A program made the position numbers and the translations under genes. Below, piece after piece: positions 4,180 to 18,412 of a DNA stretch of 64,000 nucleotides. Positions within the stretch are counted from its first letter, which is position 1. The number at the start of each line of letters is the position of its first letter. The stretch comes from Lentzea sp. NBRC 102530 (GTDB taxonomy: Bacteria > Actinomycetota > Actinomycetes > Mycobacteriales > Pseudonocardiaceae): contig NZ_BSTF01000002.1 in assembly GCF_030269365.1 (NCBI RefSeq), positions 558,001 through 622,000 of the forward strand. The letters run 5' to 3'. Under the pieces are notes generated by a model. The model searched no databases and was not told the DNA's origin. It saw only the letters and a list, made by a program, of their open reading frames with translations.

Positions 4180-5481
4180 ATGAGTGAACGAGGCGCCACG
4201 TCGCAACGGAAGGTCGCGCTCGCGACACTCACCGGCGCGACGCTGGAGTGGTACGACTTCTTCCTGTACGGCACGGCTTCCGCGCTGATCTTCAACAAGC
4301 AGTTCTTCCCGTCGCTGTCCCCGGCGGCGGGCACGCTGGCCGCGTTCAGCACGTTCGCCGTCGGGTTCATCGCCCGCCCGCTCGGCGGCCTCGTCTTCGG
4401 CCACTACGGCGACCGCATCGGCCGCAAGATGACGCTCGTGGTGTCGTTGGTGCTGATGGGAATCGGTTCGACGCTCATCGGCGTGCTGCCCGGCTTCGCC
4501 ACCATCGGCGTGTGGGCCCCGATCCTGCTGGTCGCGTTGCGCGTCGTGCAGGGCATCGGCCTCGGCGGCGAGAACGCCGGCGCGAACCTGATGGCCCTGG
4601 AACACGCGCCGCCGGACCAGCGCAACCGCTACGCGGGCTTCCCCCAGATGGGCACGCCGGCCGGTCTGGTGCTGGCCAAGACCGTCTTCCTGATCACCAG
4701 CACGGTGATGCCCGCCGCGGCCTTCACGTCGTGGGGCTGGCGGATCCCGTTCCTGCTCAGCGCCGCGCTGGTCGTCGTCGGCCTGGTCATCCGCCTGCGC
4801 GTGACCGAGACCCCGTCGTTCGCGAAGGCCGTCGAACGCCACGAGATCGTGCGCTTCCCCCTGAAGGAGGCGCTGTCCGTCGGCGCGGGCAAGCTCGTGC
4901 CGACCCTGGTGCTCAGCATCGCGAACTCCGCCGTGGCGTACCTGTTCCTGGTGTTCAGCCTCTCCTACGGCACCGCGCAACTGGGGCTGAACCGGCAGTT
5001 CCTGCTGATCACCGTGACCGTGGCGGCTGCCTTGTGGTTCCTCACGATTCCGGTGTGGACGTCCATTGCGGACCGTCGCGGGCGGCGCGGCATGTTCGTG
5101 TGGGGTTCGGTGGCGCTGCTGGTGTGGGCGGCCGCGTTCTTCCCGTTGCTCAACACGAAGAACACGGCCGTCATCGTGCTGGCCCTGGTCGGCATGGGCC
5201 TGATCATCCCGGTCACCCACTGCGTGCAGGGAGCGATCGTCGCGGACACGTTCTCGGCGAACGTCCGCTACTCCGGCTCGTCCCTGCTGCTGCAACTCGC
5301 GGCGCTGCTCGGCGGCGGCCTGGCGCCGCTGGTGTCCACCGCGATCCTGAACGAGACCGGTGCCACGACCGGCGTCAGCGCCTACATCACGGCGGTGTGC
5401 GCGCTGAGCCTGCTGGCCGCCGTACTGGCGTTCCGGACGTCACCGGTCTCGCGCAGGGTGGACGCTCCGGTCACCGCCTAG
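4180..5481 (+). CDS. MFS transporter, metabolite:H+ symporter type
   Basis: The 433-residue protein has about 12 membrane segments. GATLEWYDFFLYG in the first segment is the hallmark of the metabolite:H+ symporter branch (dicarboxylate, proline/betaine and shikimate carriers). The loop motif GHYGDRIGRKMTL between segments 2 and 3 is the MFS signature. I chose the ATG at 4180 because the protein then starts just before the family's conserved first helix; an upstream in-frame ATG at 4084 would overlap the divergent esterase. The substrate is probably a small organic acid or betaine. Its stop overlaps the end of the convergent peroxidase gene by 4 bp. Confidence 0.88.
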   Translation: MSERGATSQRKVALATLTGATLEWYDFFLYGTASALIFNKQFFPSLSPAAGTLAAFSTFAVGFIARPLGGLVFGHYGDRIGRKMTLVVSLVLMGIGSTLIGVLPGFATIGVWAPILLVALRVVQGIGLGGENAGANLMALEHAPPDQRNRYAGFPQMGTPAGLVLAKTVFLITSTVMPAAAFTSWGWRIPFLLSAALVVVGLVIRLRVTETPSFAKAVERHEIVRFPLKEALSVGAGKLVPTLVLSIANSAVAYLFLVFSLSYGTAQLGLNRQFLLITVTVAAALWFLTIPVWTSIADRRGRRGMFVWGSVALLVWAAAFFPLLNTKNTAVIVLALVGMGLIIPVTHCVQGAIVADTFSANVRYSGSSLLLQLAALLGGGLAPLVSTAILNETGATTGVSAYITAVCALSLLAAVLAFRTSPVSRRVDAPVTA

Positions 5482-6623: not shown

Positions 6624-7451
6624 TCAGCTGCGGTGGATCACGGTCTGCGCGTGCTCGCGGGCCGGGGCGCTCAGCGTCGTGTTGAGCTGCTCGAACAACG
6701 CCTCCGCCGTCACGCCGTTCCACCCCGGCGGCAGCAGCGACAACGGCAGGCCCGGGTCGCTGTACGGCAGGCGGCGCCACGCGGTGAGCATCGGCACGTA
6801 CAGCTGGAACGCCTGTTCCGGCGTGGTGGCGCCGGCGTCGACGAACGGGCGGTGGCGGCGCAGGAAGTCCGCGTAGAGGTCCGCGAGTTCGTCGAGGTCC
6901 CACCAGGTGCGCACCTTGGAGCGCAGGTCGCCGAACGCGAAGTGCTGACCGGTGAAGATGTCGACGTACTCGGCCAGGCCGCGGCGTTCCAGGGTGCGGC
7001 GGGTCTCGGTGGCGAGGTTGCCGGGCGCGACCCACACGCCCGGTGCGGCGGTGCCGAAGCCGAGCTGGGTGAGGCTGGTGCGCAGGGCGTGCCGCTTGTC
7101 GCGTTCGGACTCCGGCACCGAGAACACCACGACCAGCCAGCCGTCTTCGGCGGTGGCGCGGCGGCGTTCGAAGATGCGGGTGTCGCCCTCGGCCAGGGTT
7201 TCGAGGGTGGATTCGGCCAGCACGTAGCCGGCGGCGCCGTCGCGGCGTTCGGCCACGACGACACCCCGGCGCTTCAACCGCGAGATCGACGAGCGGACCG
7301 CCTGGCCCTCGACGCCCAGGTCGGCCATGAGCTGCACGACCGACGCCACGGAGAGCCAGTTGTGCTCCGTGCGCGCGTAGAGGCCGAAGATCGTGATGAT
7401 GAGCGGGCCCAGCCGGTCGCGTACGGCGGGAGCCGCGGCTTCGACGGTCAT
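6624..7451 (-). CDS. PaaX-family transcriptional regulator
   Basis: The 275-residue protein has the PaaX architecture: an N-terminal winged helix (about residues 10-90, with SSISRLKRRGVVVAERR), a central domain and a C-terminal PaaX domain. PaaX proteins are repressors released by aryl-CoA thioesters; phenylacetyl-CoA is the classic effector. Here it is the last gene of the leftward group, 31 nt after the FAH-family gene. The divergent group encodes an aryl-CoA ligase and an aryl-CoA monooxygenase, so an aryl-CoA effector is likely. The target is probably the 40-bp divergent promoter near 8830-8869. Confidence 0.88.
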   Translation of the reverse strand: MTVEAAAPAVRDRLGPLIITIFGLYARTEHNWLSVASVVQLMADLGVEGQAVRSSISRLKRRGVVVAERRDGAAGYVLAESTLETLAEGDTRIFERRRATAEDGWLVVVFSVPESERDKRHALRTSLTQLGFGTAAPGVWVAPGNLATETRRTLERRGLAEYVDIFTGQHFAFGDLRSKVRTWWDLDELADLYADFLRRHRPFVDAGATTPEQAFQLYVPMLTAWRRLPYSDPGLPLSLLPPGWNGVTAEALFEQLNTTLSAPAREHAQTVIHRS

Positions 7452-7482
7452 GTCCGCGACGTTCAGCGGTCTTCCTCCTTGA

Positions 7483-8355
7483 TCAGGTCGCGAGCTTAAC
7501 GCCCGGGCTCGCGAGGTCCGTCAGCGTGACGGTGTTGCGCAGCTCGCCGAGCCCGCTGACCCGCGTCACGACCACGTCGCCGTCCTGCAGGAACACCTGC
7601 GGCTCGCGGGCGTTGCCGACCCCGCTCGGGGTGCCGGTCAGGATCACGTCCCCGGCGCGCAGCGTCATGCCCTGGCTGAGTTCGGCGATGATCTGCGCGA
7701 ACGGGAACGCCATCTGCGCGCTCGACGCGTCCTGCACCAGCACCCCGTTGAGCTCGCACCGCACCCGCAACGCCGTGAGGTCCGCGATCTCGTCGAGGGT
7801 GGTCAGCCACGGGCCGAGCGGCATGGTGGCGTCGAGGCTCTTGCCCTTGAGCCACTGGCCGCCGTGCGCGCGTTGCAGGTCGCGCTGCGAGACGTCGTTG
7901 GCGACGAGGAACCCGAAGACGTGGTCGAGCGCCTTCTCCTCGGGGATCGAACGGCCGTCCAGGCCGATGACCATCGCGATCTCCGCTTCGTAGTCCCATT
8001 GCCGGGACACGGTCGGGTCGAACGCGATCGGGTCGGACGGGCCGATCACGGTGTCCGGGCCCTTGGTGAAGAACGTCGGCCGCAGCGGGCGGGACGCCGG
8101 GTCCTGGCCCTCGCGCTTGCCCGCCGACTCCTCGAAGTGGTCCCAGTAGTTCCAGCCGGTGCACAGGACGTCCCGGTTGAAGCGCCCCACCGGGGACAGC
8201 AGGCCGTCCAGTGGCACGACCTCGCCGGTGAGCTCGACGGGCGCGCCGCGCACCACCTCGTCCACCGAGACGGACATCAGCGAGACGACACGGTCCGCCT
8301 CGTCGACGACACCCCCGCGGCGCACACCGCCGACGGACACAGACGCGAGCTTCAC
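7483..8355 (-). CDS. Fumarylacetoacetate hydrolase (FAH) family protein
   Basis: I place the start at GTG 8355 because GGAGGGG lies about seven bases upstream; this gives 290 residues. The FAH fold follows a small N-terminal domain. The acidic metal-site residues are in YEAEIAMVIG and the NDVSQRDLQ segment, and the TGTPSGVG loop is present. Family members include fumarylpyruvate hydrolase, acylpyruvases, 4-oxalocrotonate decarboxylase and 2-hydroxydienoate hydratase/isomerase. It therefore fits a late step after aromatic ring cleavage. It is between the RidA-like gene (57-nt gap) and paaX-like gene (31-nt gap). The exact reaction cannot be assigned from sequence. Confidence 0.88.
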   Translation of the reverse strand: MKLASVSVGGVRRGGVVDEADRVVSLMSVSVDEVVRGAPVELTGEVVPLDGLLSPVGRFNRDVLCTGWNYWDHFEESAGKREGQDPASRPLRPTFFTKGPDTVIGPSDPIAFDPTVSRQWDYEAEIAMVIGLDGRSIPEEKALDHVFGFLVANDVSQRDLQRAHGGQWLKGKSLDATMPLGPWLTTLDEIADLTALRVRCELNGVLVQDASSAQMAFPFAQIIAELSQGMTLRAGDVILTGTPSGVGNAREPQVFLQDGDVVVTRVSGLGELRNTVTLTDLASPGVKLAT

Positions 8356-8412
8356 TCCGGCACCCCTCCGATATCGCGTGAACATTTCGGTGATCGTGGA
8401 AACGACATCGAT

Positions 8413-8829
8413 TCAGGTGGGCCTGACGAGGCGTTCCTCCGGGATCACCGCGACGCCGAGGATCTCGATGAGCGCCTCCGGCTGCCACAGCGCGGTGCAG
8501 CCGATGCCCGCCATCGCCGGGTAGACCGGTCCGGCGAGCTCGCGCCACACCTTGCCGATCTCCTTGCCGTGCGCCTGGTAGTCCGGGATGTCGGTGAGGT
8601 AGATCGTGATGCTGACCAGGTCCTCCGGCTCGCCGCCGGCCGCGCGCAACGTCGTCAGGACGTTGCCGAACGCCTGGCGGAACTGCTCGACGATGCCGCC
8701 CGGAACGATCCTCATGTCCGCGTCCAGCGCGGTCTGGCCGCCCAGGTGCAGCGTCGTGCCGGACAGCGTGCCGTGGGAGTAGCCGCTCGGTGCCGGGAGG
8801 CCGGCCGGGTTCACTGCCAAAGGCTTCAT
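8413..8829 (-). CDS. RidA/YjgF-family protein lacking the usual active-site Arg
   Basis: From ATG 8829 the protein has 138 residues, the normal RidA length; a longer reading frame upstream overlaps the divergent cupin gene. The fold is recognisable in VEQFRQAFGNVLTTLRAAGG and the C-terminal IEILGVAVIP. RidA enzymes hydrolyse reactive enamines and imines using an Arg in a YPAR-type motif. Here that stretch reads YPAMAGIG, so the Arg is missing, while the Glu in IEI is kept. Enamine deamination is therefore uncertain. It is the first gene of the leftward group with the FAH and PaaX genes. No clear Shine-Dalgarno sequence is present, so a short or absent leader is possible. Confidence 0.87.
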   Translation of the reverse strand: MKPLAVNPAGLPAPSGYSHGTLSGTTLHLGGQTALDADMRIVPGGIVEQFRQAFGNVLTTLRAAGGEPEDLVSITIYLTDIPDYQAHGKEIGKVWRELAGPVYPAMAGIGCTALWQPEALIEILGVAVIPEERLVRPT

Positions 8830-8830
8830 G

Positions 8831-8869
8831 AGTATTGACAGTATCTGACGGTCGTGAAGAATACGAGAT
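8831..8869. promoter_or_regulatory. Divergent promoter/operator region with tandem repeat
   Basis: Only 40 bp separate the RidA-like and cupin start codons. The stretch is AT-richer than its surroundings. It holds a near-direct repeat, AGTATTGAC then AGTATCTGAC (8831-8849), and an outer inverted pair GTATT (8832-8836) and AATAC (8860-8864). TTGACA at 8835-8840 is a perfect -35-like hexamer facing the cupin gene, with AGAATA 17 bp downstream and only seven bases before the ATG, which would give a leaderless transcript. The repeats are candidate PaaX-type operator sites. The assignment is inference. Confidence 0.5.
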
Positions 8870-9352
8870 ATGGAGCCCGACTTCAGCAGGTACCAGCTCG
8901 AAGGCGACAACTCGATGTACCGGCTGCCCAGCGGCCTGGTGGCGCCCGTCGTCACGCGCGGCGGCGCGGAGAACCCGGACACGGCGAACTCCGGTGGCGC
9001 GATCCGGATCTCGGGCGTGAGCATCCAGCACACGCCGGCGACGAGGCTGTGGTTCGGCAAGGTCACGAACGAGCCGGGCTACCGCTCCGTCACCCACCAC
9101 CACGGCGAGGCCGAGACGGGCGGCTACGTGCTGTCGGGACGGGCGCGGATCTACTTCGGCGAGAAGTTCGAGGACTACCTCGACATGGAGGAGGGCGACT
9201 GGGTGTTCGTGCCGCCGTTCATGCCGCACATCGAGTGCAACCTCGACCGCAACAACCCGCTGACGTGGATGACCACGCGGACGCCGGAGAACATCGTCGT
9301 GAACCTCGACGACGTGCCGGACGAGGACCTGCGCGACTGGCTGACCCGATGA
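8870..9352 (+). CDS. Single-domain cupin protein with complete metal site
   Basis: The 160-residue protein carries a full cupin motif set. Motif 1 has His76, His78 and Glu82 in HHHGEAETGGYVLSG; motif 2 has His120 and Asn124 in PPFMPHIECN. This predicts a mononuclear Fe, Mn or similar site. The size is like 3-hydroxyanthranilate 3,4-dioxygenase and many small cupin dioxygenases and isomerases, and much smaller than gentisate dioxygenase. It is the first gene of the rightward aromatic operon and overlaps the thioesterase gene by ATGA. A ring-cleavage or isomerase role on an amino- or hydroxy-aromatic product is plausible but unproven. Confidence 0.85.
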   Translation: MEPDFSRYQLEGDNSMYRLPSGLVAPVVTRGGAENPDTANSGGAIRISGVSIQHTPATRLWFGKVTNEPGYRSVTHHHGEAETGGYVLSGRARIYFGEKFEDYLDMEEGDWVFVPPFMPHIECNLDRNNPLTWMTTRTPENIVVNLDDVPDEDLRDWLTR

Positions 9353-10239
9353 CGACCTCCGCGATCTTCACCGAGGCCGTCACGCTGGAGAAGGCGGAGG
9401 CGGAGCACTTCGACCTCGCCTTCACCGCCGTCACCCAGCCCTGCCCGTGGCCCAAGGCGTACGGCGGTGACCTGGTCGCCGCCGCCGCGGCCGCCGCCAT
9501 GCGGTCGGTGACCGACGGCAAGACCATGCACTCGATGCACAGCTACTTCCTGCGCCCGGCCGACATCGGCGCCCAGGTGCGTTACGAGGTCGAGCTGCTG
9601 CGCGACGGCCGCGGCTACAGCACGCGGCAGGTCCGCGGCTACCAGAACGGCAAGCCCCTCTACGTCTGCCTGGCGAACTTCGCGGCGGGCGAGGCGGGCG
9701 GGACCTACGCGGCCGAGTTCACCGACGACCTGCCGGCGCCCGAGGAGTTGCCGTCCTCGGCGGACTACCTGCAGGGCCGCGACGGCGGCACGATGACCGG
9801 CGAGTCGAAGGCGTACTGGGCCGGGGGCCGCAGCTTCGACATGCGGCACGTGCCCGGCCCGGTCTACCTCGCGGTCGAGGGTGCCAAGGTGCCGCACCAG
9901 GCCGTGTGGATCAAGCCGTTCGACCCGCTGCGGCCGGTCGACGGGCTGACCGACGCCCAACGCGACCTCGCCGCGCTCGCCTACGTCTGCGACTACACGA
10001 TCCTCGAGCCGGTGCTGCGCGTGCTCGACCTGCCCTGGGCACAGCCCGGGCTCGTCACCGCGAGCCTCGACCACGCCATGTGGTTCCACCGCCCGGGCCG
10101 CGTGGACGACTGGCTGCTCTACGTGCAGGAGGCCGTCGCCGCCGACTCCGGCCGCGGACTCGGCCACGGCCGCTTCTTCACCCGCGACCACCGGCACCTC
10201 GCCACCGTTGCCCAGGAGGGCATGATCCGCGCTTCCTGA
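9349..10239 (+). CDS. TesB-type acyl-CoA thioesterase
   Basis: The 296-residue protein is a double hot-dog thioesterase of the TesB (acyl-CoA thioesterase II) family. The N-terminal half has YGGDLVAAAAAAAMRSV and MHSYFLRPADIG; the C-terminal half has ASLDHAMWFHRP, where the catalytic Asp lies in LDH. The ATG at 9349 overlaps the cupin stop codon. In this setting, between a ring-modifying cupin and an aryl-CoA ligase, it probably releases CoA from a hydroxylated aryl-CoA or a ring-opened CoA ester. That would make the pathway CoA-primed but end in free acids. The substrate is inferred only from the neighbours. Confidence 0.9.
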   Translation: MTTSAIFTEAVTLEKAEAEHFDLAFTAVTQPCPWPKAYGGDLVAAAAAAAMRSVTDGKTMHSMHSYFLRPADIGAQVRYEVELLRDGRGYSTRQVRGYQNGKPLYVCLANFAAGEAGGTYAAEFTDDLPAPEELPSSADYLQGRDGGTMTGESKAYWAGGRSFDMRHVPGPVYLAVEGAKVPHQAVWIKPFDPLRPVDGLTDAQRDLAALAYVCDYTILEPVLRVLDLPWAQPGLVTASLDHAMWFHRPGRVDDWLLYVQEAVAADSGRGLGHGRFFTRDHRHLATVAQEGMIRAS

Positions 10240-10266
10240 CCCGCCGCCCGCGGAAGGACTTCACCG

Positions 10267-11853
10267 ATGGACACCTTCGCCCGCGACCACCTCCCCCCGG
10301 CGGCGTTGTGGCCGACGATCGAGTTCACGACGCCGGAGCTGACCTACCCCGAACGCCTCAACGCCGCCGTCGAGCTCATCGACGTCCCGGTGGCGGCGTT
10401 CGGCCCCGACCGTCCCGCGCTGCGCACCCCGGCGGGCGAGGTCTGGACGTACGGAGAGCTGCGGACCCGTGCGAACCAGGTCGCGGAGGTGCTGACCGAG
10501 GACCTCGGACTCCTGCCAGGACAACGGGTCCTGCTGCGCTCGCCGAACAACCCGTGGACCGCGGCCGCGTGGCTCGGCGTCCTCAAGGCGGGCGGTGTCG
10601 TGGTCACGACCATGGCGGCGCTGCGGACCCGTGAGCTCACGCCGATCGTCGACCGCACCCGGCCGTCCATCGCGCTCGTGGACCCCCGGTTCGCCGAGGA
10701 CCTCCAGGACTTCCCGGACCTGAAGGTCGTGGACCACGACGACCTCGCGGCCCGCACGAGCACCAAGCCCGGAGAGTTCGTGGCGGTCGACACGGCCGCG
10801 GACGACGTCGCGTTGCTCGCGCCCACGTCCGGCAGCACCGGCGCACCGAAGATCACCGCGCACTTCCACCGCGACGTGCTGTCCATCGACAACACCTTCG
10901 GCCGGCACGTCCTGAAGCTCACCGGGAACGACCTCGTCGCGTGCACCGCGCCGTTCGCGTTCACGTTCGGCCTGGGCATGCTGCTCGTGTTCCCGCTCAG
11001 AGCCGGCGCCTGCGCGCTGCTGACCGAGGCCGCCACCCCGGCGCAGGTCGCGGACCTCGTGCAGCAGCACGGGGTCACGGTCCTCGCCACCGCGCCCACG
11101 GCGTACAAGGCGATCCTGCGCGACGGCCTCGAAGGCAAACTCGCCGGGCTGCGCAGCGCCGTGTCCGCGGGCGAGCACATCCCGCGGGAGACCTGGCAGC
11201 GGATCCACGACGCGCTGGGGCTCAAGGTGATCGACGGCATCGGCGCCACGGAGTTGCTGCACATCTTCCTCTCCGCCGCCGGCGACGACATCCGGCCCGG
11301 CTCCACCGGCAAGCCGGTCCCCGGCTACCGCGCGACCGTGCTCGGCGTCGACGGAGAGGAACTCGGGCCGGGCGAACCCGGACGGCTCGGCGTGATCGGT
11401 CCGGTCGGCTGCCGCTACCTCGACGACCCGCGGCAGGAGGACTACGTGGTGGGCGGCTGGAACGTCACCGGCGACGTCTTCCACCGCGACGAGGACGGCT
11501 ACTTCCACTACCACGCCCGCAGCGACCACATGATCGTCTCCTCCGGCTACAACATCGGTGGCCCCGAGGTCGAGGAGGCCATCGACACGCACCCGGACGT
11601 GCTGGAGTCGGCCGTCATCGCCAAGCCCGACGAGGAACGCGGCTCCGTCGTGTGCGCGTTCGTGGTGCTGCGCGAGGGCGTCCCGGCCGACGACGCGAAG
11701 GCGCGCGAGATCCAGGACCACGTCAAGCAGACCATCGCGCCGTACAAGTACCCGCGCGAGGTGCGGTTCCGGACCTCGTTGCCCCGCAACGCGAGCGGCA
11801 AGCTGCAGCGCTTCGCCCTGCGCAAGATCGTCGAAGAAGAGGTCCGAGCATGA
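10267..11853 (+). CDS. Benzoate/2-aminobenzoate-CoA ligase family enzyme
   Basis: The 528-residue ANL-superfamily ligase has the phosphate-binding loop LAPTSGSTGAPK (from about residue 184), an adenylation core including DGIGATELLHIF, and the C-terminal catalytic Lys in RNASGKLQRF. The overall length and TELLH motif match the benzoate-CoA ligase subfamily, which also includes 2-aminobenzoate-CoA ligase. It should convert an aromatic acid, ATP and CoA to aryl-CoA. AGGAC at 10255-10259 serves as the ribosome site, 27 nt after the thioesterase stop. Its TGA overlaps the ATG of the monooxygenase/reductase. That coupling suggests anthranilate or salicylate as substrate. Confidence 0.88.
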   Translation: MDTFARDHLPPAALWPTIEFTTPELTYPERLNAAVELIDVPVAAFGPDRPALRTPAGEVWTYGELRTRANQVAEVLTEDLGLLPGQRVLLRSPNNPWTAAAWLGVLKAGGVVVTTMAALRTRELTPIVDRTRPSIALVDPRFAEDLQDFPDLKVVDHDDLAARTSTKPGEFVAVDTAADDVALLAPTSGSTGAPKITAHFHRDVLSIDNTFGRHVLKLTGNDLVACTAPFAFTFGLGMLLVFPLRAGACALLTEAATPAQVADLVQQHGVTVLATAPTAYKAILRDGLEGKLAGLRSAVSAGEHIPRETWQRIHDALGLKVIDGIGATELLHIFLSAAGDDIRPGSTGKPVPGYRATVLGVDGEELGPGEPGRLGVIGPVGCRYLDDPRQEDYVVGGWNVTGDVFHRDEDGYFHYHARSDHMIVSSGYNIGGPEVEEAIDTHPDVLESAVIAKPDEERGSVVCAFVVLREGVPADDAKAREIQDHVKQTIAPYKYPREVRFRTSLPRNASGKLQRFALRKIVEEEVRA

Positions 11854-14222
11854 AGATCGCGTCCAAAAGGATCGCCATCGTCGGCGGCGGCCCCGGTGGG
11901 CTCTACCTCGCCGCGTTGATGAAGCAGCTCGACCCCGCCCACGTCGTGACGGTGTGGGAGCGCGAGGCGCCGGACGTCACGTTCGGCTTCGGCGTCGTGT
12001 TCTCGGACGAGACGCTGGGCGGGATCGAGAACGCCGACCCGGAGTTCGCCGACGCGATGGCCCGCCGGTTCGCGCGGTGGACGGACATCGACATCCACTA
12101 CCGCGGCGAGACGCACACCGTGGGCGGGCAGGGGTTCGCCGCGATGAGCCGCAGGGAACTGCTGCACCTGCTCCAGCGGCGCTGCCTCGACCTCGGCGTG
12201 GACGTGCGGTTCTCGACACCCGCGCCCGCCGTCCGGGACCTGCGCGCCTCGCACGACCTCGTCGTCGGCGCGGACGGCGTCAACTCCCAGGTGCGGCAGG
12301 CGTTCCAGGACGTCTTCCGCTCCACAGCGGACCGCAGGCGCAACAGGTACATGTGGCTCGGCACGGACCTGGTCTTCGAGGCGTTCCAGTTCTACATCAA
12401 GGACACGCCGTGGGGGACCGTGCAGGTCCACGGTTATCCCTACTCCGACAAGGGTTCGACGTTCATCGTCGAGATGCACGAGGACGTGTGGCGGCGCGCC
12501 GGGTTCGACACCGGTGAACAGTTCCCGCCCGGCGTCTCCGACGAGCGCGCCGTCGACCGGATCCGCGAACTGTTCGCCGCCGAGCTCGACGGTCACGAGC
12601 TGTACGCGAACAACTCGAAGTGGCTGAGCTTCACGACCGTCCGCAACGCCCGGTGGCACGACGGCAACCTCGTGCTGGTCGGGGACGCCGCGCACACCGC
12701 GCACTTCTCGATCGGCTCCGGCACGAAGCTCGCGATGGAGGACTCGCTCGCGCTCGCCGCGTGCCTGCACGAACACGCCGACGTCGAAACCGCCCTGACG
12801 GCCTACGAGGCCGAACGGCGGCCCGTCGTCGAGTCGACCCAGCGCGCGGCCCAGGCGTCGCTGGAGTGGTTCGAGAACATCGGCATGTACACCGGCCAGG
12901 ACCCGACCCGGTTCTGCTTCAACCTGCTCACGCGCTCGCGCCGGATCACCTACGACAACCTGCGCACGCGCGACGCCGAGTTCGCCGACCGGGTCGACGC
13001 CGGGTTCGCCGCCTCCCAGGGGCTCGCGGAGGTGGTTCCGGCGATGTTCCAGCCGTTCCGGCTCGGGCAGCTGGAGCTGAAGAACCGGGTGATCGTGTCC
13101 GCGATGGACATGTACTCGGCGGAGGACGGCGTGCCCGGCGACTTCCACCTCGTGCACCTGGGCTCGAAGGCGATGGGGGGCGCGGGCCTGGTCATGACCG
13201 AGATGGTGTGCGTCTCGCCGGAGGGCCGGATCACGCCCGGCTGCACGGGCCTGTGGAACGACGAGCAGCGCGACTCGTGGGCGAGGATCGTCCGGTTCGC
13301 CCACGAACGCGGCACCGCCCGGATCGGCCTGCAGCTCGGCCACTCCGGCCGCAAGGGCTCCACCCGGCTCATGTGGGAGGGCATGGACGAGCCGCTGCCC
13401 GAGGGTGGCTGGGAGGTCTGCGGCCCGTCCCCGCTGCCGTACGGCCCGGCGTCGCCCGTGCCGGCCGAGGTCACCCGCGCGGACCTGGACCGGATCACGG
13501 CCGAGTTCGTCGCGGCGGCACGGCGGGGTGCCCAGGCGGGCTTCGACCTGCTCGAACTGCACTGCGCGCACGGCTACCTGCTGTCGTCGTTCCTCTCGCC
13601 GGTCGCGAACCAGCGCACGGATGAGTACGGCGGCTCGGTGGAGAACCGGCTGCGGTACCCGCTGGAGGTGTTCGACGCCGTCCGCGCGGTGTGGCCCGCG
13701 CAACGGCCGATGATCGTGCGCATCTCGGCGACCGACTGGGTCGACGGCGGCAACACCGAGCACGACGCAGTGGAGATCGCCCGCGCGTTCGTCGCGCACG
13801 GAGCCGACGCGATCGACGTGTCCAGCGGCCAGGTCACCGCGGCCGAGCGGCCCGCGTACGGGCGCAGTTACCAGACCCCGTTCGCCGACCGGATCCGGCA
13901 CGAGGTGACCGGCGCCGCCGTGATCGCGGTCGGGGCGATCGCCTCGTACGACGACGTCAACTCGATCCTGCTGGCGGGCCGCGCGGACCTGTGCGCGATC
14001 GGCCGCACACACCTCTACGACCCGCACTGGACGTTGCACGCGGCGGCCGAACAGGGCTACCAGGCCGAGTGGCCGGTCCAGTACCGGGCGGGCAGCCGCA
14101 AACCGCCGTCGGCGCGCACGGACGCCGTCAAGCCCCGGCTGTCGCTGCTGCGAGCAGACCCGCCGGACCGCGTCGTCCATCTCAGGTGGACTCCGCACCG
14201 CGAGCGCGCGACGCTCGGATGA
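11850..14222 (+). CDS. Bifunctional aryl-CoA monooxygenase / old yellow enzyme (2-aminobenzoyl-CoA monooxygenase/reductase type)
   Basis: From the ATG overlapping the ligase stop the protein has 790 residues and two fused domains. Residues 1-380 are a class A flavin monooxygenase: Rossmann motif VGGGPGGLYLAALM near residue 11 and the GD motif LVGDAAHTAHFS near residue 275. Residues 396 to about 760 are an old-yellow-enzyme TIM barrel starting FQPFRLGQLELKNRV, with QLGHSGRKG and HCAHGYL (near residue 569). This is the architecture of Azoarcus 2-aminobenzoyl-CoA monooxygenase/reductase and of actinobacterial salicylyl-CoA 5-hydroxylases. It hydroxylates, and possibly then reduces, the CoA-activated ring. 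The bound ring substituent (amino or hydroxyl) cannot be told from sequence. Confidence 0.92.
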   Translation: MKIASKRIAIVGGGPGGLYLAALMKQLDPAHVVTVWEREAPDVTFGFGVVFSDETLGGIENADPEFADAMARRFARWTDIDIHYRGETHTVGGQGFAAMSRRELLHLLQRRCLDLGVDVRFSTPAPAVRDLRASHDLVVGADGVNSQVRQAFQDVFRSTADRRRNRYMWLGTDLVFEAFQFYIKDTPWGTVQVHGYPYSDKGSTFIVEMHEDVWRRAGFDTGEQFPPGVSDERAVDRIRELFAAELDGHELYANNSKWLSFTTVRNARWHDGNLVLVGDAAHTAHFSIGSGTKLAMEDSLALAACLHEHADVETALTAYEAERRPVVESTQRAAQASLEWFENIGMYTGQDPTRFCFNLLTRSRRITYDNLRTRDAEFADRVDAGFAASQGLAEVVPAMFQPFRLGQLELKNRVIVSAMDMYSAEDGVPGDFHLVHLGSKAMGGAGLVMTEMVCVSPEGRITPGCTGLWNDEQRDSWARIVRFAHERGTARIGLQLGHSGRKGSTRLMWEGMDEPLPEGGWEVCGPSPLPYGPASPVPAEVTRADLDRITAEFVAAARRGAQAGFDLLELHCAHGYLLSSFLSPVANQRTDEYGGSVENRLRYPLEVFDAVRAVWPAQRPMIVRISATDWVDGGNTEHDAVEIARAFVAHGADAIDVSSGQVTAAERPAYGRSYQTPFADRIRHEVTGAAVIAVGAIASYDDVNSILLAGRADLCAIGRTHLYDPHWTLHAAAEQGYQAEWPVQYRAGSRKPPSARTDAVKPRLSLLRADPPDRVVHLRWTPHRERATLG

Positions 14223-15088: not shown

Positions 15089-18000
15089 GTGGACTGGGGG
15101 CGCCGCTTCGAGGAAGCGCTGCGGATCGCCCAGGTCGCCCTGACCTCGAAGAGCCTGGCCGACGCCGTGGTGGCGGGCCGCAGGGCAGTGGCGGCGCCGG
15201 GCGGCGGTGTGCACCGCGCACAACTCGCGGCCGTCCTGTACTGGCGGTACCAGCAGGGAGGAGTCCTGGCCAACCTGTACGAGGCGCGCGAGCTGGACCG
15301 GGCCGCGGTCGCGGACGATCCGGAGAACGCCTACAAGGCCAGCAACTTCGCGCTGCTGTTGAAGAAGCTGTTCGAGGAGGCCGGTGACCCCGCCGACCTG
15401 GCGGAGGCGGAAACGATGGCGCGCCGCGCTGTGGCGTTGAGCCCTCACTCTCCCGCCTACCGCCGGATGTTGTCGATGGTGCTGCGCACCGCTTTCACCC
15501 GCACCGGCGACCAAGCCGTTCTCGAAGAGGCCGTCGAGTTGTCGGCGGAGGCCCTCGAACTACCGGACGACCAGGGCGATCCAGCGCACTACCAGTACTC
15601 CTTCGCTCTGTCACTCGCCGACTGGTACGACGCCGTGAGAAGCCTGGATGCGTTGGACGAAGCGATCACCGCGGCTCGCTCGGCGGTGTCGTTGTCCCGG
15701 CCTGGGGCCCAGGACACCATCGATCGCCAAGCACACCTCTGCGCGATGCTGGACACCCGCTGGGAGTTGACCGGGACCGCGCAACACAAGGCCGAGCTGG
15801 TCGACGCGACCACGACGCTCGCGATGATCTCGCCGCATGGACACACGTCGCGGGACATGGCCGAGCGAAACCTGCTCGCGCTGCAGGGCCGCGACCCGCT
15901 GAAGCCACTGCCGGACGAGGCCGAACTGCTCGCCGCGGAAGCCGTCCGCCGCCTCGCGCGGTACAAGCAAACAGGCGAAGTTGAGCGGCTGGAAGAGGGG
16001 ATCGCGCTCGCGAGGGCGGCGGTGCAGGCCGGCACTCCGATCCAGGAGCGCCGCGCGAGCCACCTGGACACGTTGGCCGTCGCGTTGAAGGAGCGGGTCA
16101 ACGCGGTAGGAGGTGATCTGGCGGAGAGTCTCGACCTGCACCGCCAGGCGATCGAGCTGGATCCGTGCGCGCGCCACCTCTCGAACGCGAGTGGCACGTT
16201 GCTCAGAATCTTCCGCGCCAACGGCGAGTTCGCGCTGGTGGACAAGGCGATCGAGCTCACCCGTGCCGCGGTGGCCCAGCTGCCGGACGCCGCCAACCTC
16301 GGGATGCTGGCTGTGTGCCTCAACCACCGGTACGAGGTGACCGGGGAACTCGCGGTGCTCGAGGAGGCGATCACCCACGCTCGGGCGGCCACGCGCCAGA
16401 TCGACGAGGGGGATGCCTGGCACAACGCGGCCAACCTGGCGACGTTGCTGTACAGCTGGTTCGCGCGCACAGGGGAGCTGGCGGGGTTGCGGGAATGCGC
16501 CGCGATGCGGGAGACGGTGCTCGCCGGTGTCCCGGTGCGCCATCCGAAACGAGCAGAACACCTCTGCAACCTGGCAGCGGTGCAGCACGAGATCTTCGAT
16601 CGCTCCGGAGATCAGAAGGCGTTGAACGCCGCGATCACGGCCCGCCGCGCGGCGGTGGAACTCACCCCGGAGTGGCACCAGGACAGGTTCCGGTATCTGG
16701 CGGGTCTGAGCAGTTTGATGGTGGCCAAGGGCGAGGTCGGGGAGGGCGTTTCGCTCGCCAGGCAGGCGCTGCGTCACACGGATCCCTACCACCGCGCTCA
16801 CAGGTTGATGGTGCTCGCTCAGGCGTTGGGCGCTGAGCATGCGCTGACGGCCGACCCGGCCACCTTGACCGAGGCGCTGGAGGTGTTGCGCACCGCGTCC
16901 GAGGTGGCGGTGTCACCTGTGGAGGAGCGTCTCGGCGCCGCCGTGAAGTGGGGCGAGCTCGCTGCCCGCACCGGCAGGCGCGAGGAGGCGGCGGTGGCCA
17001 TGGCCACCGCCGTGGGGTTGTTGCCGCGACTGGCTTCGCGGAGGCTCGGCCGGGGCGACGCCCAACACTTCCTCCGGAGGTTCACCGGCCTCGCGGGCAA
17101 GGCGGCCGCGTGCGCGCTCGACGCCGGAGGTCCCGCGGCCGCCGTGGTCGTCCTCGAAGTCGGTCGCGGCGTGCTGTCCGCTCAGGCGCTCGACGTTCGC
17201 GAAGACCTGAGTGCGCTGCGCGAGGACGCACCCGCGCTCGCGCAGCGGTTTGACGAGCTGAGCGAGGCGATCGAGAACGACCAGAATGCTGACCGGGTGG
17301 CGCTCTCGGCGGCGTTCGACGAGGTGTTGAACGGTATCCGGGCCGTCCCCGGCCACGAGGACTTCCTGCGCCGCCCCACGTTCGCCGAGTTGGTCGACGT
17401 GGCATCGGAAGGGCCTGTTGTCCTGGTCAACACCAGCCCGACCCGGTGCGACGCGCTGATCCTGACGCCTGACGAGGTGCTGCCGGTGACGTTGCCCGCG
17501 CTCTCGGACGCTGAGCTTCGTCGCAGAGTGAAGGCCTTCCACACAGGGCTTGCCGAGCAGGAGAACAGCGCACGGGAACTCGCTGTGCTGCAGACGCTGG
17601 AGTGGTTGTGGCACGCGGTCGTCCGCCCGGTTGTCGCCGCGCTGCCGCCGGCCGGGGCTGAGCTGCCGCGGGTGTGGTGGTCGCCGGTCGGCCCGCTGGC
17701 GCTGCTGCCCTTGCACGCGGCCGGCGTCCACGGCGGGGAGTGGATCGGCGACCACATGATCTCCTCCTACACCACGACGATCCGCGCCCTGCGGTACGCC
17801 CGGCGCGCCCCTTCGGGGGGCCGTCCGCGGCAGTTGATCGTCTCGATGCCCAAGACCCCCGGCGACGAGGACCTGCCCAACGCGGAACGGGAGGCGGCCG
17901 CCGTGGCGATGACTGTGCCCGGCGCGAAGCGGTTGAGCGCGGACGAGGCGAATCGCGCCGCGGTGGTGCGGGCGTTGGCGGACAGAACCTGGGCGCACTT

Positions 18001-18412
18001 CGCGTGTCATGGGAACGCGGATCCGGCGGATCCGTCTCGCAGCTGCCTCGCGCTCTTCGACGGACCCCTGACGGTGCCGGAGATCGCCCGGCTGCGGCTG
18101 GCCGATGCGGAGTTCGCCTACCTTTCGGCGTGCGACACCGCGCGGGCGGAACCGACCTTGTCGGATGAGGCGATTCACCTCGCCGGCGCGTTCCAGACGG
18201 CGGGGTTCCGGCACGTCGTCGGAACCCAGTGGGCCGTGAACGACGAGATGGCGCGCTATGCCGCCGGTCTCGTCTACGACGAGGTCATGGGGGAGGGTGA
18301 GCCCGACGCCGCTCGCTCCGCGGCGGCACTGCACTCGGTGCAGGCGGCGCTCAGGGAGGGGTTCCCGAACATCCCCTCACTGTGGGCGACGTTCCTGCAT
18401 GCCGGTGCCTGA
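15089..18412 (+). CDS. TPR-CHAT protein (caspase-like peptidase domain)
   Basis: The 1,107-residue protein starts at GTG 15089. About residues 1-700 are TPR-like helical repeats, with recurring blocks ending in EAVELSAEALELP or AITHARAATRQ. The C-terminal part, from about 780 to the end, is a CHAT domain, a caspase/separase-clan peptidase. The catalytic pair is visible as His974 in HFACHG and Cys1015 in LSACDTA, followed by GFRHVVGTQWAVND. TPR-CHAT proteins are thought to cut a target after a signal is sensed through the repeats; Csx29 of type III-E CRISPR is a well-known relative. No nuclease, reverse transcriptase or STAND gene is next to it. Target and trigger are unknown. Confidence 0.88.
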   Translation: MDWGRRFEEALRIAQVALTSKSLADAVVAGRRAVAAPGGGVHRAQLAAVLYWRYQQGGVLANLYEARELDRAAVADDPENAYKASNFALLLKKLFEEAGDPADLAEAETMARRAVALSPHSPAYRRMLSMVLRTAFTRTGDQAVLEEAVELSAEALELPDDQGDPAHYQYSFALSLADWYDAVRSLDALDEAITAARSAVSLSRPGAQDTIDRQAHLCAMLDTRWELTGTAQHKAELVDATTTLAMISPHGHTSRDMAERNLLALQGRDPLKPLPDEAELLAAEAVRRLARYKQTGEVERLEEGIALARAAVQAGTPIQERRASHLDTLAVALKERVNAVGGDLAESLDLHRQAIELDPCARHLSNASGTLLRIFRANGEFALVDKAIELTRAAVAQLPDAANLGMLAVCLNHRYEVTGELAVLEEAITHARAATRQIDEGDAWHNAANLATLLYSWFARTGELAGLRECAAMRETVLAGVPVRHPKRAEHLCNLAAVQHEIFDRSGDQKALNAAITARRAAVELTPEWHQDRFRYLAGLSSLMVAKGEVGEGVSLARQALRHTDPYHRAHRLMVLAQALGAEHALTADPATLTEALEVLRTASEVAVSPVEERLGAAVKWGELAARTGRREEAAVAMATAVGLLPRLASRRLGRGDAQHFLRRFTGLAGKAAACALDAGGPAAAVVVLEVGRGVLSAQALDVREDLSALREDAPALAQRFDELSEAIENDQNADRVALSAAFDEVLNGIRAVPGHEDFLRRPTFAELVDVASEGPVVLVNTSPTRCDALILTPDEVLPVTLPALSDAELRRRVKAFHTGLAEQENSARELAVLQTLEWLWHAVVRPVVAALPPAGAELPRVWWSPVGPLALLPLHAAGVHGGEWIGDHMISSYTTTIRALRYARRAPSGGRPRQLIVSMPKTPGDEDLPNAEREAAAVAMTVPGAKRLSADEANRAAVVRALADRTWAHFACHGNADPADPSRSCLALFDGPLTVPEIARLRLADAEFAYLSACDTARAEPTLSDEAIHLAGAFQTAGFRHVVGTQWAVNDEMARYAAGLVYDEVMGEGEPDAARSAAALHSVQAALREGFPNIPSLWATFLHAGA

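Follow-up and report, generated by a model that had tools for sequence, protein, structure and literature searches.

Streptomyces sp. WA46 reportedly degrades salicylate by a salicylate-CoA/gentisate route encoded by its sdg genes. The locus described here, from a Lentzea genome, resembles that system in CoA activation and in a related FAD monooxygenase half, but it has an added old-yellow-enzyme (OYE) half and a RidA protein, and none of its seven genes encodes a gentisate 1,2-dioxygenase, a two-domain cupin, its own cupin being a single-domain protein of 160 aa. With the 2-aminobenzoyl-CoA pathway of the Azoarcus type, as described in the accessible part of PMC4539516, it shares a CoA ligase of the same family and a fused enzyme with the motifs of both halves intact. 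It differs from this type in having no enoyl-CoA hydratase or acyl-CoA dehydrogenase in the cluster; a cupin and a TesB thioesterase are present instead, and a FAH-family protein is often added in such clusters. The same cluster is found on plasmid pAL1 of Arthrobacter sp. Rue61a (locus L177), which has the PaaX, RidA, FAH, cupin, TesB, ligase and fused-enzyme genes, although there the FAH gene precedes the cupin gene on the other strand, whereas in Lentzea it follows RidA, and a second PaaX gene lies after the fused enzyme. The sequence-only reading of the Lentzea DNA held that no such seven-gene set had been characterised. This has to be qualified, since the same set lies on pAL1 and its ligase was assayed. 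No published role for the pAL1 cupin, RidA or FAH was found in the accessible Rue61a text (PMC3534580). Likewise, no cupin, RidA or succinylpyruvate step in the 2-aminobenzoyl-CoA pathway was found in the accessible parts of the literature searched.

The locus occupies positions 6624-14222 of a 64-kb window, that is, of the whole stretch of DNA analysed. All seven genes are present and intact, and the claimed arrangement around one divergent region was confirmed in gene order and strands: PaaX, FAH and RidA on the reverse strand, cupin, TesB, ligase and fused enzyme on the forward strand. The start codons of RidA and cupin are separated by 40 bp, and 4-bp overlaps join cupin to TesB and ligase to fused enzyme. 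Pfam families match the naming throughout (PaaX, FAA_hydrolase, Ribonuc_L-PSP, Cupin_2, Acyl_CoA_thio/4HBT_3, AMP-binding and FAD_binding_3 + Oxidored_FMN, respectively).

The ligase (10267-11853) is an AMP-forming aryl-CoA ligase, probably of the anthranilate type, which reaches 323 bits against the benzoate-CoA ligase family model, below the cut-off of 375. Its best solved relative is the anthranilate-CoA ligase 4wv3, and it is 64% identical to the pAL1 ligase, which was assayed as an anthranilate-CoA ligase according to the accessible text of PMC3534580; a cloning primer given there maps to the start of the pAL1 ligase gene. The claim of a CoA-dependent, aminobenzoate-type locus is supported, and the seven-gene set very probably degrades anthranilate. 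Automatic annotation suggests otherwise: the NCBIfam label of the fused enzyme is bifunctional salicylyl-CoA 5-hydroxylase/oxidoreductase, in accordance with a cluster that would serve another CoA-activated aromatic acid, for example salicylate by way of gentisate. This is very improbable in view of the ligase relatives, and because Rue61a, in the accessible text, grows on none of salicylate, gentisate or 5-hydroxyanthranilate (PMC3534580). A RidA protein implies a nitrogen-bearing substrate, and the tryptophan 2,3-dioxygenase and kynureninase-family genes that adjoin the cluster in Rhodococcus qingshengii N9T-4 would yield anthranilate, which argues against salicylate. Salicylate/gentisate was rejected as the main reading on the Rue61a ligase assay and growth data, RidA and these neighbouring genes.

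Of the 23 other genomes of the genus Lentzea, 21 have the cupin at 93% identity or more, and a five-gene core (RidA, cupin, TesB, ligase and fused enzyme) is complete in 80/80 cupin loci, a top-ranked sample comprising the best 80 of 567, so the locus is more than a chance assembly. A conserved neighbourhood in other actinobacteria was found in that sample, and neither cupin nor RidA was absent from the syntenic loci, so the sequence-only reading was not contradicted there. Cupin and TesB accompany the fused enzyme in 9 of the 59 loci of this class and in 0/50 of the remainder, among which a hydratase is present in 42, an acyl-CoA dehydrogenase in 34 and at least one of the two in 42, the beta-oxidation type of these comparison loci being assigned from gene content and similarity. 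In the 9 cupin loci no hydratase or acyl-CoA dehydrogenase gene adjoins the fused gene; one cupin locus, L072, does hold such genes, one for a hydratase and two for acyl-CoA dehydrogenases, but no closer than 5.8 kb to the fused gene. Queries with hydratase, acyl-CoA dehydrogenase and SDR genes of beta-oxidation clusters hit nothing anywhere in the 64-kb window (E 1e-4). Together with the split across the 59 loci this upholds the claim of a lower pathway without beta-oxidation, and the pAL1 ligase assay, the conserved core and the same split support both the substrate class and the missing beta-oxidation. The thioesterase alone is not diagnostic, since 4HBT thioesterases are also present in proteobacterial beta-oxidation clusters. 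Rhizobium leguminosarum and R. rhizoryzae have cupin (67% identical), RidA, FAH and fused enzyme without ECH or ACAD.

The fused FAD monooxygenase/OYE reductase (11850-14222), of the 2-aminobenzoyl-CoA monooxygenase/reductase type, scores 1212.8 bits against NF006101 (cut-off 1078), shares 73% identity with its pAL1 counterpart over 787 residues and carries the motifs of both halves, HCAHGY in the OYE part and GGGPGGL in the FAD part. The reductase motif HxxHGY is kept in 72/72 cupin-cluster fused proteins compared. Five cupin clusters from Streptosporangiaceae have a fused enzyme that groups with enzymes of other clusters and shows the cupin-type residue at none of the 8 type-specific positions; a single clade for all cupin-cluster rows had an AU p of 0.00026, the 81-row tree covering three of these five cases. 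The R. leguminosarum fused enzyme shares 83% identity with its counterpart in an Azospirillum beta-oxidation cluster. Two separate cases are thus seen in which cupin clusters contain a fused enzyme from a beta-oxidation lineage. With these swapped rows set apart, eight positions separate cupin-type from other fused enzymes, one of them perfectly (Gln94 in 66/66 versus His or Asn in 49/49), so a difference in product between the types may exist.

Canonical RidA imine deaminases have a catalytic Arg105 in a PAR-S/T motif. In the RidA-family protein of the locus (8413-8829; PF01042, 73.3 bits) YPAM replaces this motif, as it does in 29/29 cupin-cluster RidAs shown and in RidAs of beta-oxidation clusters; Arg occupies the site in 0/41 RidAs from other loci and in 3/7 genome paralogues. 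The cluster RidA is a member of the same subfamily as the RidAs found alongside the fused enzyme in beta-oxidation clusters, and the PAM-motif kind is shared with such clusters from actinobacterial loci, Sagittula, Sinorhizobium, Azospirillum, Ruegeria and Deinococcus. Cupin-cluster RidAs form one clade (29 rows, support 99), which remains one clade while the Streptosporangiaceae fused enzymes are exchanged. Intact reductase residues, the shared RidA subfamily and the two exchanges indicate that the pathways probably branch after dearomatisation.

These observations do not support the order of reactions proposed from the sequence at first, in which the fused enzyme would hydroxylate the CoA ester alone, TesB would free 5-hydroxyanthranilate, the cupin would open the aromatic ring in the manner of gentisate and FAH would finish the degradation. 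The reductase motif is intact in 72/72 cupin-cluster proteins compared, RidA would have no task, and fused enzymes of beta-oxidation lineages serve cupin clusters. Opening 5-hydroxyanthranilate between C1 and C2 would moreover produce an amide, for which the seven genes include no amidase. TesB is present in 80/80 of the best 80 of 567 cupin loci and Gln94 marks cupin-type fused enzymes apart from swapped ones, both of which fit such a route. So does a 5-hydroxyanthranilate-gentisate route reported for Nocardia opaca (Cain 1968, cited in the accessible part of PMC4539516). In the accessible text on Rue61a, 5-hydroxyanthranilate is converted cometabolically and a presumed hydroxyanthraniloyl-CoA (C7H7NO3) is held by anthranilate-grown cells (PMC3534580), but the strain's failure to grow on 5-hydroxyanthranilate or gentisate speaks against it, and on balance we consider the route unlikely. 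A 3-hydroxyanthranilate or 2-aminomuconate-type meta route was set aside because the known relative of the fused enzyme acts at C5 and because the seven genes encode no aldehyde dehydrogenase, tautomerase or aldolase. Such meta routes have look-alikes of a small cupin, a RidA deaminase and a FAH decarboxylase.

We propose instead, with a probability of roughly 55%, that the locus is an anthranilate module in which the 2-aminobenzoyl-CoA pathway has a different lower half. The ligase would convert anthranilate to anthraniloyl-CoA, as was shown for its 64% identical pAL1 relative (accessible text of PMC3534580). The fused enzyme, judging from its intact domains, the natural exchanges and the reaction reported for the Azoarcus enzyme, would hydroxylate C5 and reduce the ring to the non-aromatic 2-amino-5-oxocyclohex-1-ene-carboxyl-CoA. 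RidA is the proposed deaminase of this CoA-bound enamine, whose hydrolysis would give 2,5-dioxocyclohexane-carboxyl-CoA and ammonia. In the least certain step the cupin, with Fe(II) and O2, would cleave C1-C2 of the beta-dicarbonyl to 2,4-dioxopimelate (succinylpyruvate), either while the substrate is still a thioester or once TesB has released the free acid, a dihydro relative of gentisate. The TesB-type double-hotdog acyl-CoA thioesterase (9349-10239), which scores 171 bits against TIGR00189, below its cut-off of 292.85, would remove CoA before or after this cleavage. The FAH-family protein would finally act as an acylpyruvase releasing succinate and pyruvate.

In anthranilate-grown Rue61a a C7H8O4-CoA was detected, possibly cyclohexanedione-carboxyl-CoA according to the authors (accessible text of PMC3534580), which, so read, is the product predicted for the RidA step. 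The strain also carries a second, chromosomal gene set, and a mutant lacking pAL1 can still use anthranilate for growth; for these reasons, and because of the hydroxyanthraniloyl-CoA, the metabolites in that text are not assignable to the pAL1 cluster.

The cupin (8870-9352) matches Cupin_2/Cupin_1 alone in Pfam and no NCBIfam model, including no curated dioxygenase model. A His/His/Glu/His metal site is made up by the two cupin motifs; H76, H78, E82 and H120 are invariant in 10/10 cluster cupins, while among 45 wider relatives the three His are invariant and Glu82 is not. An AlphaFold2 model (pLDDT 89.6) shows a small cupin fold; an earlier one from 10 rows (pLDDT 37.9) was discarded. By fold and by sequence its neighbours are generic (oxalate decarboxylase, TM1459, quercetinase), the fold search singled out no one function, and these neighbours give no hint of a C-C cleavage acting on a diketone. 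The cupin of a Ruegeria beta-oxidation cluster, considered as a counter-example, is unrelated (E 0.19). Dke1-type diketone dioxygenases have a 3-His site; the proposed O2-dependent cleavage of a beta-dicarbonyl is like theirs, but the cluster cupin has a 3-His plus Glu motif. As decarboxylases and isomerases are among its neighbours, the cupin might, after the same dearomatisation and RidA deamination, isomerise, decarboxylate or otherwise prepare the dione, with FAH or another hydrolase opening the ring. FAH-family enzymes are able to cleave C-C bonds of diketones and the FAH-cupin pairing is compatible with any order. Decarboxylation, however, would give 1,4-cyclohexanedione, which is no beta-diketone and would not be a FAH-type substrate. 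Ring opening is also more easily given to the cupin, since the cupin defines the set and a neighbouring FAH is absent in 31/80 of the best 80 of 567 cupin loci. We regard this alternative as doubtful, though less so than free 5-hydroxyanthranilate.

In the proposed module, the FAH-superfamily protein (7483-8355; PF01557, 234.8 bits), a putative 2,4-dioxopimelate hydrolase, starts with GTG at 8355, an alternative ATG at 8385 being possible. FAH-superfamily C-C hydrolases and decarboxylases have a His-x-x-Glu lid pair, and besides the FAA_hydrolase domain this pair is found here as H73-x-x-E76, invariant in 7/7 cluster FAHs. The proposed 2,4-diketo acid hydrolysis is like that of L-2,4-diketo-3-deoxyrhamnonate hydrolase and acylpyruvases, and a profile of 7 cluster FAHs matches the former (8gsr) at 2.8e-67. 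The best NCBIfam model for the Lentzea protein, the 2,4-diketo acid hydrolase NF053535 (2,4-didehydro-3-deoxy-L-rhamnonate hydrolase), gives 171.4 bits, below the equivalog cut-off of 500, and 425.9 bits with the R. leguminosarum FAH; the Lentzea protein thus lies in the same superfamily neighbourhood without being the same enzyme. Two FAH subtypes are differently placed within clusters. Three genomes without a neighbouring FAH were searched, and each has one 54-58% identical elsewhere; FAH was also near the cupin in 4/4 loci that were read at 43-60% identity and have no fused gene.

The regulator (6624-7451) matches Pfam PaaX, PaaX_M and PaaX_C above cut-off and TIGR02277 at 149.8 bits, below the cut-off of 264.55, and is therefore a PaaX-family member, not PaaX itself; its gene is present in 69/80 of the best 80 of 567 cupin loci. 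Between RidA and cupin lies a conserved 35-bp promoter/operator-like element, TATTGACnnTAnnTGACGnnnGTGAAnAAnACGAG (8833-8867), which with up to 4 mismatches is found in 67/94 cupin loci and 0/50 other fused-enzyme loci. PaaX probably acts through this element as the repressor of both divergent operons. In a search for a wider regulon, a near-identical 34-base pattern with up to 3 mismatches had one copy in the whole genome (reversed control 0), with no second site. A shorter pattern gave four additional 2-mismatch matches, and its reversed control gave one.

It is about an even chance that actinobacteria, and rhizobia by separate assembly, have, for the CoA-dependent breakdown of aromatics, a second lower half that is complete in itself, in which the ring is dearomatised as a CoA ester, deaminated by a dedicated RidA of thioester type, cut to 2,4-dioxopimelate as an alicyclic beta-dicarbonyl by a small cupin dioxygenase and split to succinate and pyruvate. 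The natural exchanges of fused enzymes between the two lower pathways are a rare evolutionary argument on an unstable intermediate. Each proposed step predicts a definite product, and gene sets from many genera are at hand. If the proposal is true, a common route for anthranilate, and hence for tryptophan, indole-type compounds and quinoline, is carried under a misleading salicylate label. Ring opening on this route would mean that a small cupin oxidatively cleaves a saturated cyclic beta-dicarbonyl, a reaction not found in the literature searched. The CoA-hybrid strategy would then be joined with a gentisate-style logic, and new reactions would be added both to the cupin family and to this RidA subfamily.

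All seven genes named in the sequence-only reading, situated at 6624-14222, were confirmed as intact by gene reading and by their Pfam and NCBIfam families. They form two divergent groups whose starts are separated by 40 bp: RidA (8829-8413), FAH (8355-7483) and the PaaX regulator (7451-6624) on the minus strand, and the cupin (8870-9352), TesB (9349-10239), the aryl-CoA ligase (10267-11853) and the fused monooxygenase/old-yellow-enzyme (OYE) protein (11850-14222) on the plus strand, with a 4-bp overlap at cupin/TesB and again at ligase/fused enzyme. In the host genome of 9.5 Mb, where the window occupies C2:558001-622000, the cupin has a single match, there is one full-length fused enzyme, and the RidA family has eight matches. 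Beta-oxidation gene queries against the entire 64-kb window gave zero matches.

Some other genes of the window were also noted. An MHS-family metabolite:H+ symporter (shikimate-transporter-like, 4180-5481) lies about 1.1 kb past the PaaX gene and is not a conserved cluster member. A flavin reductase-like protein (1467-1985; HsaB/StyB-like, under cut-offs) adjoins a BTAD regulator, with no neighbouring partner oxygenase noticed. At 15089-18412, preceded by a DUF6338 gene, is a protein of 1107 aa whose C-terminal part is a CHAT domain (PF12770), followed at 18651-20951 by a large DUF7617-domain protein, relatives of which are close to the cluster in nine other Lentzea loci.

Fused-gene neighbourhoods were compared within the class, where 57 of 345 genomes encode a fused enzyme that scores above the curated cut-off. 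Among 59 such neighbourhoods (the window's own excluded, two of the 59 under cut-off), nine possess both cupin and TesB (L048, L052, L069-L073, L079, L080). In the 50 loci without cupin, clustered called ORFs gave a hydratase in 40 and an acyl-CoA dehydrogenase in 29; on a tblastn recount these numbers were 42 and 34, with both present in 34 and neither in eight (L040, L043, L045, L085, L090, L094-L096), and tblastn found cupin and TesB in none of the 50. The sole hydratase match among the nine cupin loci is a cut gene (38.6%) where L072 ends. It and the two acyl-CoA dehydrogenase-family genes that come after it are at least 5.8 kb from the fused gene, on the opposite strand, and the sister loci L071 and L073 are without them. 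RidA is common to both kinds of cluster. Comparison with other loci supports the earlier description of the locus as anthranilate-type and free of beta-oxidation genes.

Within the genus, 21 of the 23 other genomes covered by a 60-genome search have a cupin of at least 93% identity, and the 36 genomes outside the genus gave weak matches (top 42% identity) or none. A cupin-profile scan of named genomes yielded 567 relatives, and the best 80 were retained. In every one of these the fetched stretch also holds RidA, TesB, the ligase and the fused enzyme; 69 have PaaX and 49 have FAH, which is absent from the fetched stretch in 31. Of the 49 FAHs, 29 are of the window-like subtype, every one between PaaX and RidA; the other 20 belong to a second subtype, and 15 of these sit between RidA and cupin. 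No hydratase match was found in the 80 loci, and one has a weak acyl-CoA dehydrogenase match (25%). As these are top-ranked loci, some on stretches ending at contig ends, they tell how closely the set keeps together where the cupins are near relatives, and not the general frequency of cupin linkage. Their hosts include Streptomyces, Kitasatospora, Nonomuraea, Actinoplanes, Nocardioides, Phycicoccus and others. In Streptomyces violaceusniger NBRC 13459 (L142) the fused enzyme, downstream of the ligase, was matched in four pieces, which suggests frameshifts or assembly errors. Of 94 cupin loci, a number in which two or more genomes are counted repeatedly, 67 have a 35-bp element (at most four mismatches) in the RidA-cupin interval; none of 50 other loci has it. 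It occurs once in the host genome and in two copies each in L052 and L157, and is likely a promoter/operator common to both divergent groups.

As to the substrate, the complete set recurs on plasmid pAL1 of Arthrobacter sp. Rue61a, as PaaX, RidA, FAH, cupin, TesB, ligase, fused enzyme and a second PaaX. The published account (PMC3534580) describes the pAL1 ligase, expressed in E. coli, as an anthranilate-CoA ligase, and the ligase primer printed there maps to the first base of the cluster's ligase gene. According to the same paper, cells growing on anthranilate hold anthraniloyl-CoA alongside the CoA ester of C7H7NO3, which is presumed to be hydroxyanthranilate, and that of C7H8O4, possibly cyclohexanedione-carboxyl-CoA; the strain did not grow on salicylate, gentisate or monohydroxy-anthranilates and converted 3- and 5-hydroxyanthranilate cometabolically, and without the plasmid it still grew on anthranilate, presumably through chromosomal paralogues (PMC3534580). 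Identity between window and pAL1 is 64% for the ligase and 73% for the fused enzyme. In Rhodococcus qingshengii N9T-4 the cluster adjoins genes for a tryptophan 2,3-dioxygenase and for a member of the kynureninase family, each scoring slightly under its curated cut-off. In R. erythropolis BG43 it is about 6 kb from aqdR, which has a link to alkylquinolones, and L079 and L122 have nearby a gene of the cyclase family and one for a TPP enzyme, by our guess an isatin hydrolase and an isatinate decarboxylase. All these observations fit anthranilate as the substrate. The label attached to 11850-14222 by NF006101, bifunctional salicylyl-CoA 5-hydroxylase/oxidoreductase, is misleading for cupin-cluster loci, because the ligase assay, RidA and the neighbours point to anthranilate.

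The sequence-only reading had proposed hydroxylation as the CoA ester, release of 5-hydroxyanthranilate and opening of the aromatic ring by the cupin. This order is unlikely in view of the reductase half and the ancestry of the fused enzymes. All 72 cupin-cluster fused enzymes examined (94 cupin loci minus 20 of Lentzea and the incomplete L137 and L142) have the reductase motif HxxHGY, as do 48 of 51 others, two rhizobial loci being among the 51. A tree of 81 fused enzymes, of which 30 come from cupin loci and 51 from elsewhere, recovers the cupin type as a single group with 27 members (support 91), but the enzymes of three Streptosporangiaceae cupin clusters nest among the others, beside L061 and the beta-oxidation loci L046 and L068. 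In a 43-row tree (23 cupin-cluster rows, 20 others) five Streptosporangiaceae fused enzymes (L052, L118, L120, L132, L157) joined at 100, and a single clade of all cupin-cluster rows, a group set beforehand by gene content, was rejected (AU p 0.00026). Cupin, TesB and RidA of these five clusters are all still of cupin type, and cupin-cluster RidAs form one clade (support 99, 29 rows). They carry a fused gene of the other lineage, which has apparently displaced the original. With the exchanged rows set apart, eight positions mark the cupin type (residue in at least 90% of 66 cupin-type rows and at most 10% of 49 others), and the exchanged enzymes (six rows, five genomes and one repeat) differ from the cupin type at all eight, which strengthens the argument from exchange. 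One position, Gln94, also separates the types fully, and on balance these counts leave the likelihood of the competing readings as it was.

The rhizobial cupin clusters are a separate case. Those of R. leguminosarum and R. rhizoryzae combine a fused enzyme with SDR, 4HBT thioesterase, RidA, cupin and FAH, and neither gave a hydratase or dehydrogenase match. The R. leguminosarum cupin is 67% identical to that of the window, while the fused enzyme of R. leguminosarum shares 83% identity with the one in an Azospirillum beta-oxidation cluster and 76% with a Sinorhizobium one. Together, the Streptosporangiaceae and rhizobial cases indicate that a fused enzyme of beta-oxidation lineage works with one lower half as well as with the other. 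This is the expected outcome if both receive the same product, and the branch between them probably sits after dearomatisation.

Canonical RidA has an arginine where RidAs from both kinds of cluster read PAM. YPAM is found in 29/29 cupin-cluster RidAs; in other loci PAM is present in most and arginine in 0/41, and 3/7 other RidA-family proteins of the host genome have arginine at this site. The PAM kind is also found in clusters of Sagittula, Sinorhizobium, Azospirillum, Ruegeria and Deinococcus; the Comamonas cluster has no RidA within the fetched stretch. A RidA with no need to grip a carboxylate would suit a thioester-bound enamine.

The top NCBIfam model for the FAHs is NF053535, with 171.4 (window), 189.0 (L069), 191.5 (pAL1) and 425.9 bits (R. 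leguminosarum) against a cut-off of 500 bits. L-2,4-diketo-3-deoxyrhamnonate hydrolase ranks third of the solved relatives, the top two carrying less specific names, and the cluster FAHs are most similar to 2,4-diketo acid hydrolases. The cupin has a 3-His plus Glu motif, the Glu being variable in wider relatives, and its confident structure model is a small cupin fold with generic structural neighbours. Among loci without a fused enzyme, the closest cupins that were read (Alloyangia, Pacificitalea, R. ruber and Arthrobacter StoSoilB3) have FAH nearby, and two of the four also alkene reductases. For distant cupins (about 37-42%) of Agrobacterium, Sinorhizobium and Streptomyces plasmids no annotated FAH was found within 10 kb, the Microvirga record being without annotation. 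We propose that the cupin would cleave 2,5-dioxocyclohexane-carboxylate or its CoA ester oxidatively between C1 and C2 to 2,4-dioxopimelate, a 2,4-diketo acid which FAH would split into succinate and pyruvate. Such a lower half would employ all six enzymes, with none missing.

Cupin relatives outside fused-enzyme clusters (L178 9028-9456, L180 8992-9423, L182 8962-9390, L206 5034-5474) have FAH genes nearby, some also SDR, alkene-reductase (OYE) or TRAP transporter genes, and perhaps belong to a broader family of enzymes that open cyclic-dione rings. A Ruegeria beta-oxidation cluster has its own cupin (L235 13535-13987), unrelated to the cluster cupin (E 0.19).

From all these results, the route through dearomatisation has more support than the other readings, with the cupin reaction within it predicted. 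The gene set can already be found in public databases and has been studied in part on pAL1, and is therefore not a new type of system; what is new here is a variant form of the 2-aminobenzoyl-CoA pathway.
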